From: Pyrococcus kukulkanii
Lineage (GTDB): Archaea; Methanobacteriota_B; Thermococci; Thermococcales; Thermococcaceae
DNA: 64,000 bases
NCBI RefSeq assembly: GCF_041647995.1
Contig: NZ_JARRIB010000001.1
Coordinates: forward strand, 558,001 to 622,000
Direction: 5' to 3'
Position numbers and translations under genes: made by a program. Shown one piece after another: positions 34,061 through 41,543 of the stretch. Under the pieces are notes generated by a model that was not told where the DNA came from, did not search any database, and worked only from the letters and a program-made list of their open reading frames with translations. Position 1 is the first letter of the stretch, and every line of letters starts with the position of its first letter.

Positions 34061-34222
34061 TATTAGAGCCCTAGGAGAAAAAGATGGGAGATGAATTTAA
34101 GGTTTTTGGCAGTAACGCTCACCGAAATCCGGGCAAATTAAGATCCAGCATCTTCCACTAAAGAACAGAGGCTTCAAAAAATGAAAAGAAAGAAGAGGGG
34201 GATTACCCCACCTAAAGTCTAA

Positions 34223-34241
34223 ATCACAATAACTTTGTGAT
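34223..34241. promoter_or_regulatory. inverted repeat ATCACAA-N5-TTGTGAT upstream of TATA
   Basis: The 7-base arms are perfect. A TATA-like ATTATAAATATTTTT follows directly, and the secreted caspase-fold-like gene starts 79 bases later. The rest of the 34061-34319 gap holds only a GGGG-ATTA-CCCC hairpin (34196-34209) and divergent promoter sequence. Confidence 0.5.
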
Positions 34242-34319
34242 TATAAATATTTTTGCTTTTAGGATCTTTAATCCATAAGATTTAAATATGTAATAGTTTT
34301 CAATAAATGTGGTAATGTT

Positions 34320-35072
34320 ATGAGAATGTTTTTAAGAATAGTGTTATTAGGGTTAATATTGAGCTTATTTATTAGTTCAACATTTGTAAGTGCAAAAGAG
34401 GTTATAGGCTTCCCAATAGGTCTTAAATTTGCAGCAGAAAACAGAGAGAAGGCAGTAACACCCATTGCATCTAGATATCATATGATCTCAATATCAGGTA
34501 GTGGAAAGTATGCAATTATCCACTATGTCCCAGACGATGATTATAACTATTATCATACAGACTACGTCTCTGAAATATTAAGGAATAAAGAATACTCTGT
34601 TATCATATGGAATGCAGGTAACAACAAGTGTAGGAATTCTGAATGTACTAACTATTTCCTTCGAGCTTTAAATAGGGATATTAGAGTTATTTACTATTAT
34701 GGACATACTGCAAAAAATGATAAGAAGGAAATTTGGGGGCTTATCATGGATGATATTTATGGTATAACTACCGACATATATGCAGGTAATTTTAAAGCAG
34801 TGGGGGCAAATTTAAATGGAGCTTTGATCTTTGTTCTAGGATGCGATTCATACAAACTAAGACAGGGGTTCAAAAAATATTACTCTGTAACATATGTTGG
34901 GACAAAAGGCCAAATAGCTCTGATATATATAAAGTCAAAAGGCAAAAAATTCTGGGATGAACTTTCAAAAGGAAAGACTGCTAAACAGGCTGTAGACGCT
35001 ATCCAACCTCACTGGTGGGAGTTCAGATGCCCAGAATTTGGACTTGATGGAGATAGCTCATGGAAATTATAA
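34320..35072 (+). CDS. secreted caspase-fold (clan CD/CHAT-like) protein
   Basis: The 250-residue protein has a signal peptide (MFLRIVLLGLILSLFISSTFVSA). The mature part shows a clan-CD-like dyad: hydrophobic strand then His in IRVIYYYGHTA (about residue 127), and hydrophobic strand then Cys in ALIFVLGCDSYKLRQGF (about residue 182). The helix KFWDELSKGKTAKQAVDAIQ at the end resembles the C-terminal helix of CHAT/C25 domains. The gene is AT-richer than its neighbours. It could be a secreted protease; a binding-only or degenerate form is possible. The next gene follows after 19 bases. Confidence 0.65.
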   Translation: MRMFLRIVLLGLILSLFISSTFVSAKEVIGFPIGLKFAAENREKAVTPIASRYHMISISGSGKYAIIHYVPDDDYNYYHTDYVSEILRNKEYSVIIWNAGNNKCRNSECTNYFLRALNRDIRVIYYYGHTAKNDKKEIWGLIMDDIYGITTDIYAGNFKAVGANLNGALIFVLGCDSYKLRQGFKKYYSVTYVGTKGQIALIYIKSKGKKFWDELSKGKTAKQAVDAIQPHWWEFRCPEFGLDGDSSWKL

Positions 35073-35091
35073 GCGAACAGGAGGAAGACCT

Positions 35092-36123
35092 ATGAATACA
35101 GAAAAGAATAAGCTTGCTCTTATTTCTTTTTTTCTTATATTAGCAATAGCAGTATACATAATCATCACTCCATCTCCTGAAGATAGATACCCATACGAGT
35201 CTTTGAGGCCCATAAAGGCCCTCCCCAATATTAGAACGCTAGAGGTGATAGATGAAAAGAGCTACACTCTGAATGCCATTGTGTTCAACAGGAATAATGA
35301 AACGGTTAACTGGACTCTATACATAGACCTTCCGCACCAAATTTGGGAGAACGCGGAAGTTCTGTTCATCAATAATGGCTTCATTCTCATGGAAACATTT
35401 TCGATCGTCCCAAACGCAACATTCTTCGAAATTAATTGGAGCAATGACATCGTAACTCTGGAGAGAGGTGCGCTAAAATTTAAGCTCAATCTTCCTCCAA
35501 AAAGCTATACTATAATTCCAGTGGTCGTTGTATTTAAGAAGTGGCCAAGCTATCCGCTCGGCAAGCTGATAGAGGGAGAGATCATAACATTGGGTAACTC
35601 AACGTACAAGGTAGCCTATACCTGCAAAGGCAACTGCACAGTGGAAATCTGGATCCCCAAGAAGGTCGGATACAGCGAGAAGTACGGAATAGAAGTAGAT
35701 AAATACAAGGAAAAGGTTAGAGGACTCTTTAAAAGCCTGAAAAGTGAGTATGGATTGCTAATCGTTGGTAAAAATGTTGAAGAGGCCTTGAGAAGATTTG
35801 AAGGATACGAGGATGTTGAATCTCCAGAAGGCTATTGCTTAATACAAAAGGCGGAAGGGGAAGAAATATACTCAAAAGACTGGATGAGCTACATGGGGGC
35901 CCCAGGGTACTATACAAGTGGCGAATACTACGTGAAAGTCTTCAAAAAGAGTAATGGCTCCATAACGTTCACGACAACTGGAACATGTGAGCCAAAAGTT
36001 ATCATTAAGGCAACCATAATTAAAAACACGCCATTGGTAAAGGTCAATATACCAGATCCCATATACCCAACTAAAAGCGTCGTAGTAATAACGCAGAGCA
36101 TCATAACTGGAGCAAAAACATAG
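35092..36123 (+). CDS. membrane-anchored extracellular protein, unknown
   Basis: The 343-residue protein starts MNTEKNKLALISFFLILAI; the ATG follows GGAGGAAG. An N-terminal signal-anchor (LISFFLILAIAVYIIITP) is followed by a beta-rich extracellular domain with several N-x-S/T sites (NNETVNWT, NGSITFT) and Cys pairs (YTCKGNCTVEI). A linker with helices (YKEKVRGLFKSLKSEYGLL) lies mid-way. The family is not recognised. It is co-oriented with and close to the caspase-fold-like gene, so it may be its partner or substrate. Confidence 0.72.
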   Translation: MNTEKNKLALISFFLILAIAVYIIITPSPEDRYPYESLRPIKALPNIRTLEVIDEKSYTLNAIVFNRNNETVNWTLYIDLPHQIWENAEVLFINNGFILMETFSIVPNATFFEINWSNDIVTLERGALKFKLNLPPKSYTIIPVVVVFKKWPSYPLGKLIEGEIITLGNSTYKVAYTCKGNCTVEIWIPKKVGYSEKYGIEVDKYKEKVRGLFKSLKSEYGLLIVGKNVEEALRRFEGYEDVESPEGYCLIQKAEGEEIYSKDWMSYMGAPGYYTSGEYYVKVFKKSNGSITFTTTGTCEPKVIIKATIIKNTPLVKVNIPDPIYPTKSVVVITQSIITGAKT

Positions 36124-36133
36124 AGAAGGAGGG

Positions 36134-40350: not shown

Positions 40351-40893
40351 ATGAGGCCTCCGTTCATATACGGCAGAATAGTGGATAAAGAACACTTCGC
40401 AGACCGAGAAGAGGAAGTTGAAAAATTAAAAAAGAGGATTCCGGGGATGAATTCGCTAAATTTATCCTAAAGAAGTTCGAAGAGAGTAGACTAGCCGTTG
40501 AGGCAGAAGTTATCGGCGACACACTGAACATCACAAAGGGCCATCCACACTATACCCAAATGCTCTGCCAGAAATTGTAGCTCAATGCAGTAATCCAAGG
40601 AAAAAGAGGATTAGCAGGGAGGATTTAGAAATAACACTTAATGAAGCTTTAAACAAAGCATCTGAGCTATTTGAAGAAATTTGGGACTCACTAACCCTAA
40701 ATCAAAGAAAGGTTTTAATCGCAATAGCTAGGGGAGAAAAAAGACTTTTACTCTAGGGGGGCTTTTTGAATAGGTACGGATTCAAGAGGTCATCTACCGT
40801 CCAAGCAGCTATAAAAGGGCTTAAGGACAAGGAAATTATCATTAAAGAAGGAGGAAAATACCTCATTGAAAAGCTGGTTAAAAGAAGATTCTA
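40351..40893 (+). pseudogene. archaeal ATPase relic, internally deleted
   Basis: A start MRPPFIYGRIVDKEHFADREEEVEKLKKR is followed almost at once by C-terminal parts of an AAA ATPase: FAKFILKKFEESRLAVEAEVIG, ITKGHPHYTQMLC, then shifted frames encoding EDLEITLNEALNKASELFEEIWDSL and a winged helix (VIAIARGEK...LKDKEIIIKEGGKYLI). The whole Walker A/B core is missing and stops lie at 40578-40580 and elsewhere. It ends against the 3-prime end of the SRP RNA. This is the third relative of this ATPase family in the window. Confidence 0.78.
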
Positions 40894-41216
40894 GCGGCGG
40901 CGGGCGCGCCCGGAGGTGGGAACCCTCCACCGCTCCCTTTCACCGGGCCCTACCTCATCCCCGCACCCCCGCGAGCGTGCTCCGTGGCCCCTACCGCTGC
41001 TCCCTTCCGGGCCTTGCGGGGTTCAGGGCCCAAAGGGGGTTAGCACGGCCCTTCAGCCGTGCCTCCCCCACCGGGCACCCCGCGGGACGAGGACTCATCG
41101 TTCGGTCCCGGCTTCCGGGAGCGGCTTCGGGAACCGCCCCCCGGGCTTCGGCCCCGGCATATCGGCGGTTTCCGGTTACAGGGGACGCCGAACCCCCCGG
41201 CCTAGCCCGCCGCCAA
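40892..41216 (-). ncRNA. 7S signal recognition particle RNA
   Basis: This 325-base, very GC-rich stretch is the archaeal SRP RNA. On the minus strand the 5-prime GGCGGCGGGC pairs with the 3-prime GCCCGCCGCC as helix 5/1 closing. The SRP54-binding helix 8 is clear: GGCCCGGAAGGGAGCAGCGG (about 40997-41016), with the conserved GGAA tetraloop and AGCAG. A TATA box lies about 25 bases upstream of the estimated 5-prime end. Frames crossing it are not coding. The bases 41217-41481 hold its promoter and AT-rich sequence but no gene I can see. Confidence 0.96.
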
Positions 41217-41236
41217 GCAAGAGTTTCTCGGCCTAG

Positions 41237-41247
41237 TTTTATAAAGG
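41237..41247 (-). promoter_or_regulatory. TATA box of the SRP RNA gene
   Basis: CCTTTATAAAA on the minus strand is centred about 25 bases before the estimated 5-prime end of the 7S RNA, the usual archaeal spacing, and stands out from the AT-rich surroundings. Confidence 0.75.
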
Positions 41248-41481
41248 TTTGGTTAGTTGAGAATTTTACAAGATTTTGTGCAAAATACTTTTAAGTATTT
41301 TTTATGTATCCTGGTAAGGAGAGCTCAACCAACTTACATGTATATGCTAAAATCAGCCCTTCTCAAATCAAAATTTTGACAAAAATATGTTCTGAACCTA
41401 AGTTCGAATGTAAAACTCCTAACATGCTACATAAATTCTAACAGGATAAGTGCTTAAAATGTAAACAAGCTAGGAGAAATA

Positions 41482-41543
41482 GGCGATGACGACTGAATCC
41501 AATGCTGAGCTAAGGCGATGATTGACCCCAGAGTGGCCGAGCC
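41482..41543 (+). ncRNA. C/D box sRNA candidate
   Basis: The order of boxes is C (ATGACGA, 41486-41492), a 12-base guide, D-prime CTGA (41505-41508), C-prime CGATGA (41516-41521), a second guide and D CCGA (41537-41540). GGC and GCC at the ends can pair as the terminal stem. C and D are one-base variants of the consensus, so this is the least certain of the set. It lies at the 3-prime end of the convergent moeB gene. Confidence 0.6.

Follow-up and report, generated by a model that had tools for sequence, protein, structure and literature searches.

The 64,000-nucleotide Pyrococcus window analysed here carries two adjacent genes, A and B, whose products probably serve outside the cell, as a small weapon or as a signalling pair. 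A is predicted to be a secreted CHAT-like protein of clan CD, and B its membrane-anchored, β-rich partner (Table 1). The fold and the His-Cys dyad of A are well supported. A first-pass annotation of this stretch had recognized a clan CD dyad in the motifs YYYGHTA and FVLGCDSY; the open reading frame is real, the predicted fold is that of clan CD, and the two residues occupy the expected strand ends.

Table 1. Features of the A-B locus (window coordinates) and loci of the second archaeal family (locus coordinates)
Feature	Position	Strand	Description
TATA-box-like TTTAAATA	34281-34288	+	Candidate promoter of the A-B unit, from sequence; ~35 bp upstream of gene A
Gene A	34320-35072	+	250 aa; predicted secreted CHAT-like clan CD protein
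Gene A layout			Signal peptide ~1-26; low-confidence linker ~27-60; clan CD core ~62-250
H129	34704-34706	+	Predicted catalytic His after predicted strand 3, motif YYYGHTA; aligns with CHAT His; invariant in five complete sequences
C175	34842-34844	+	Predicted catalytic Cys after predicted strand 4, motif FVLGCDS(Y); aligns with CHAT Cys; sole invariant Cys of the family
Gene A C-terminal motif	35037-35069	+	FGLDGDSSWKL (F.[LI]DGD..W[KR]L); position of the CHAT C-terminal F.-YGD strand
Gene B	35092-36123	+	343 aa; N-terminally membrane-anchored, β-rich, predicted extracellular partner
Gene B features			Seven N-glycosylation sequons; invariant Cys C249 and C299
Accessory cassette (~2 kb)	34102-36128	.	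Present here; ~53 bp instead in G003
Second-family locus	L046:1150-1860		Same as L064:1501-2211
Second-family locus	L077:1318-2130
Second-family locus	L078:1384-2157
Second-family locus	L079:1408-2211
Second-family locus	L080:1480-2217
Second-family locus	L081:1459-2241
Second-family locus	L082:1471-2295

The structure of A was predicted with AlphaFold2 from a five-sequence alignment, with moderate confidence (mean pLDDT 71, pTM 0.70). Predicted β-strands span residues 63-69, 93-98, 120-127, 169-173, 191-195, and 240-243, with helices in between. DSSP assignment of the model gives the order β1-α-β2-α-β3-(H129)-α-β4-(C175)-α-β5-α-α-β6, which is the clan CD pattern, with the His at the end of strand 3 and the Cys at the end of strand 4. 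The two residues are 46 positions apart. Foldseek searches of the PDB placed SAVED-CHAT filament chains first (8tl0, E 4.6e-6, chains up to 8e-5; probability 1.00; TM ~0.5), followed by caspase-4, caspase-1, GSU0716, caspase-11, the TPR-CHAT protein of a CRISPR effector complex (7zoq), and separase. Metacaspases were among the matches in a viral library. Sequence searches of the PDB with A gave photosystem fragments at E ~0.1, which were rejected.

The CHAT affinity of A, already proposed from the first reading of the sequence, extends from this best structural match to profile comparison. A profile made from seven archaeal CHAT domains scored 35.4 with A, well above 60 column-shuffled versions of A (13.1 ± 2.0, maximum 17.5). 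A repeat with another alignment returned an equal score, with a shuffled maximum of 19.5. This remote profile-profile homology has the dyad in register: His falls on His, Cys on Cys, a [TY][VI]GT strand is aligned, and the F.LDGD of A lies on the F.-YGD of CHAT. The hhalign probability of the match is only 45%. The Pfam CHAT model (PF12770) does not reach its cut-off on A, with no match even at E 10, and when A and B were scanned with Pfam, NCBIfam, PHROGs, and PADLOC, only sub-threshold matches appeared, which were taken as chance. Among the families against which the first-pass annotation had proposed profile searches, CHAT is borne out, while C11 (PF03415) has no Pfam match to A and C25 fails both by Pfam (PF01364) and by profile. 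C25 was rejected as parent family, a profile of five C25 domains scoring 17.7, within the shuffled null (maximum 24.8). C14 (PF00656) does not match A in Pfam either.

A single weak match to A outside the Thermococcaceae led to a second family, without a name, whose members are small, extracytoplasmic, TM-anchored proteins of clan CD/CHAT-like type from other, distant archaea (5 of 150 genomes searched). Its profile matches A with a probability of 94-95 and a score of 57-60 (shuffled maximum 21), and CHAT with a score of 56 (shuffled maximum 23). Like A, these proteins are predicted to be exported, comprise ~240-270 residues, conserve R.H and C, and have no Pfam match. Unlike A, they have an N-terminal anchor, other insertions, and no recognized B homologue alongside. 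The same profile also matches Thermococcus surface proteins in their C-terminal portion, and in three or more of them Pfam places C25 domains at the same positions. As the second family matches both A and CHAT, it supports the placement of A in the CHAT-like group. Given these profile scores and this family, A is named CHAT-like here and is not called a Pfam CHAT member.

It is highly improbable that the likeness to clan CD is spurious, with A some other Rossmann-like α/β protein, for instance of flavodoxin-like fold. Flavodoxins do occur further down the Foldseek list of A, TM-scores are ~0.5, and the model is moderate, but the top structural matches, the CHAT score, the strand positions of His and Cys, and the link to the second family all agree. 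On the predicted structure, A almost certainly has a clan CD fold.

Complete homologues of A were found in G006, G030, G064, and G070, and a contig-truncated one in G109. H129 and C175 do not vary among the five complete A sequences, at identities down to 36%, and C175 is the sole Cys of the G030 and G064 proteins. The third conserved His of A, H79, is replaced by Tyr in G109. An unrelated fold, or His and Cys residues not conserved in homologues, had been named in advance as outcomes that would speak against a caspase-fold-like protein; clan CD is predicted instead, and both residues are conserved. Judged by model and dyad, A is likely to be an active peptidase. Some clan CD enzymes, such as legumain and GPI-transamidase relatives, ligate instead of hydrolysing, and A is too far from characterized enzymes for its chemistry to be predicted. 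A might thus keep the fold without being a hydrolase in vivo, acting as a transpeptidase or ligase, or as a binding protein that retains the dyad. This is quite unlikely, since an invariant dyad whose Cys is the only one in two homologues argues for catalysis, though it does not define the type of reaction.

The N-terminus of A (MRMFLRIVLLGLILSLFISSTFVSAKE) has the look of a signal peptide of the Sec type, and a hydrophobic stretch opens each of the five complete family members. These features agree with the secretion claimed in the first-pass annotation and suggest export by Sec. A consists of a single domain; within its 250 residues, signal peptide included, TPR and SAVED sensor domains are absent. 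AT-rich boxes similar to the candidate promoter lie just 5' of A in L025 and L021.

B was originally listed with a TTG start at 35038, inside gene A, which would give 361 residues. The true start is probably the ATG at 35092, preferred on the alignment of homologues and a GGAGG just upstream. Every B homologue has a hydrophobic N-terminal anchor, in keeping with the membrane-anchored partner noted at first. Sequons number 4-8 in each B homologue, or 1.1-2.3 per 100 residues vs 0.3 in ten other proteins of the window. Together, anchor and sequons point to export of B. The protein is predicted to be all-β from a poor model (pLDDT 61, pTM 0.55), and Foldseek matches have TM ~0.35 or lower. A match to the adaptin mu-homology domain in this range was rejected as a generic β-sandwich match. 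The model comprises two β regions with a low-confidence stretch between them (approximately residues 212-240). The initial description of the neighbour as a large extracellular β-rich protein thus stands for its all-β, predicted extracellular character, but "large" overstates a product that, from the ATG start, is mid-sized.

Gene A is present in 6 of 94 Thermococcaceae genomes. Beyond this family none was found, apart from the weak match mentioned above, and no relatives were found in two scans of genome contigs, two of viral contigs, or a scan of plasmids. In each of the five complete cases, B follows immediately downstream of A, and wherever the contig extends far enough to tell, A never occurs without B. 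B is likely to work together with A.

In the window, the pair stands alone between GT2 glycosyltransferase and fibrillarin genes of a 2.05 Mb Pyrococcus genome. It is missing from this site in seven other Pyrococcus genomes: the closest relative, G003, which is ~96.5% identical in nucleotide sequence in the cassette flanks, and six without an alignable counterpart. The G006 pair adjoins a TrkH-like gene; G000, G003, and G004 have ~23 bp at this site. Thermococcus copies are found in the riboflavin gene cluster (G030, G064) or next to a TldD/PmbA-like gene (G070, G109). A has a GC content of 34.5% and B of 40.6%, vs 45-51% for the neighbours. No transposon ends, terminal repeats, target duplications, or recombinase were seen around the cassette. 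By parsimony, the distribution fits gain of the cassette by horizontal transfer in the window lineage. PADLOC gave no convincing match and the neighbours are ordinary housekeeping genes, so a defence-island reading was rejected; genes for toxin delivery do not adjoin the pair.

Several further features of these loci were observed. In G006, ~0.9 kb of extra DNA beyond A-B (L024:3946-4868) contains an apparent fragment of an EPSP-synthase-like gene. In L025 and L042, A-B or B alone adjoins ribE, with the orientation of the rib genes, and in G066 also lies upstream of ribBA. Elsewhere in the window, Rfam identifies the archaeal SRP RNA (RF01857, 221.9 bits) at 40898-41212 (-) and the C/D-box sRNA sR46 (RF01130) at 41482-41542 (+). 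GC-rich overlapping ORFs at 40866-41294 (+), opposite the SRP RNA, are not protein genes.

Homologues of B occur in more genomes than those of A. In G066, B is intact at both Thermococcus sites, with A lost from each. At its TldD site, A has shrunk to a 23-codon ORF, MKERYIEGKAAFELDGDRNWRLG (L041:6675-6746), which comprises its last codons and still abuts the B start; the layout looks as if translational coupling to B had been kept. G024 has lost A and the start of B, and B is frameshifted. In G098, a TnpB-like zinc-ribbon sequence (L044:1-400) immediately precedes a truncated B remnant, which suggests disruption of B by a transposon, and only a remnant is left in G001. B diverges faster than A between genera (~21% vs 36-39% identity). 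When dN/dS was considered as a measure of selection on orphan B, synonymous sites were near saturation in most pairs.

The arrangement typical of toxin and immunity genes, in which the effector is always found with its partner and orphan partners exist, is seen here in a few cases. Orphan B could be what an effector with a protective partner leaves behind, and ordinary decay also fits. As intact orphans are confined to one genome and B is broken in G024, G098, and G001, orphan B may be a mere stage of decay.

These data bear on two other roles for the pair. The first makes A a surface endopeptidase and B its dedicated, anchored substrate or sensor, the cutting of which frees the ectodomain or relays a signal. 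Csx29, which cuts the neighbour-encoded Csx30, offers a CHAT precedent (PMC10028731), linkage of A to B is strict, and the anchor of B, with two β regions split at residues ~212-240, would suit such a substrate. A protein that serves only for cutting would hardly be expected to persist intact without A, as B does in G066, and the alignment of B homologues shows no obvious conserved linker motif; this role is considered unlikely. A role for A as an ordinary extracellular or surface protease, in peptide scavenging or surface maturation, with B as mere anchor or folding partner, is no more probable. Other secreted clan CD proteins occur in the Thermococcaceae, for example the C25 domains within proteins of ~1500-2100 residues in a few genomes, and A is small, with a signal peptide that looks cleavable, and could need an anchor. 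Such housekeeping is at odds with the presence of A in so few genomes, the empty sites in close relatives, the loss of A alone, and the retention of B without it.

The reading we prefer is that of a secreted protease held in check by B. It takes as its computed basis the gene pair, dyad conservation, fold prediction, CHAT affinity, patchy distribution with empty sites, and orphan B. A-B would be a horizontally mobile, two-gene accessory cassette. A would be exported by Sec and mature by loss of its signal peptide, perhaps also of residues 27-60, to a minimal clan CD domain that acts outside the cell as a cysteine endopeptidase through the H129-C175 dyad. B would likewise be exported and glycosylated, its N-terminal helix holding it in the membrane and its β-sandwich domains lying outside. 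We infer from this arrangement, along with export and proteolysis, that B may bind A at the surface of the producer and restrain it as a cognate inhibitor or immunity protein, and that the target of released A may be surface proteins of cells without a matching B. As the model of B is poor, an inhibitor fold stays conjectural. The moderate model of A (TM ~0.5, five sequences), the lack of a Pfam CHAT match, and the poor model of B weigh against this mechanism, which is offered as a tentative but plausible whole. It is more doubtful that the pair amounts to a mobile archaeal killing system, composed of a secreted CHAT-type protease that would strike nearby cells from the outside and a membrane-anchored protein that would confer immunity on the producer. 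A proteolytic, caspase-like toxin-immunity pair in hyperthermophilic archaea would, to our knowledge, be the first. Conflict mechanisms between archaeal cells are little known, and A-B bears on these. The pair is also a thermostable two-protein system suited to asking whether B inhibits, anchors, or is cut by A.

No published description of the A-B pair was found in a literature search. The first-pass view that no archaeal system of this form had been described holds for the pair within that search, but archaeal caspase homologues were already known, including a metacaspase of Thermococcus onnurineus (PMC3501461). Some prokaryotic metacaspases have an N-terminal hydrophobic helix, possibly a signal peptide, and their fratricidal use is a speculation of the same paper (PMC3501461). 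One study reports caspase-like activity in Pyrococcus furiosus (PMC3615174); no link between that activity and A was found. Caspases, metacaspases, and orthocaspases (C14) share with A the clan CD fold, the His/Cys dyad, and the structural matches to caspase-4, -1, and -11. Unlike them, A has no match to the C14 model, and caspases rank below CHAT in Foldseek.

The VARTIG modules of Thermococcales, proposed to serve in conflict or self-recognition (PMC8416519), resemble A-B in being patchy, limited to Thermococcales, and composed of membrane or secreted β/Ig-like proteins with a suspected conflict function. They differ in having a large hypervariable Ig protein first and further genes after it, and the main text of that paper makes no mention of caspase, CHAT, or peptidase (PMC8416519). 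Membership of A-B was rejected because no large multi-Ig arCOG07710 protein is present at the 5' end of the locus. The gingipain-like C25 domains of Thermococcus surface proteins are, like A, secreted and of clan CD, with a C-terminal LYGDP that resembles the LDGD of A. In contrast to A, their profile score is within shuffled controls, and intact C25 domains belong to the ~1500-2100-residue proteins mentioned above.

The characterized CHAT proteases known to us all work intracellularly, downstream of a sensor. Once activated, those described to date target partner proteins. An exported, stripped-down CHAT protein paired with a surface protein of its own would be a case of this fold at work outside archaeal cells, and A directs attention to a broader, unnamed set of exported CHAT-like proteins among hyperthermophiles. 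A differs from CHAT proteins (PF12770; SAVED-CHAT, Csx29/TPR-CHAT) in its stand-alone core of ~190 residues, its signal peptide, its lack of a TPR or SAVED sensor, its position below Pfam detection, and its membrane-anchored β partner. It shares with them the predicted fold, the GH...C dyad with Cys followed by [DE][ST], a VGT-like motif in strand 5, and the C-terminal F..xGD strand. Csx29 makes a single cut in Csx30 through H615 and C658 (PMC10028731); the E659-S660 that follows C658 is paralleled by D176-S177 after C175 of A. Like A, Csx29 works with a partner protein from its own system (PMC10028731).
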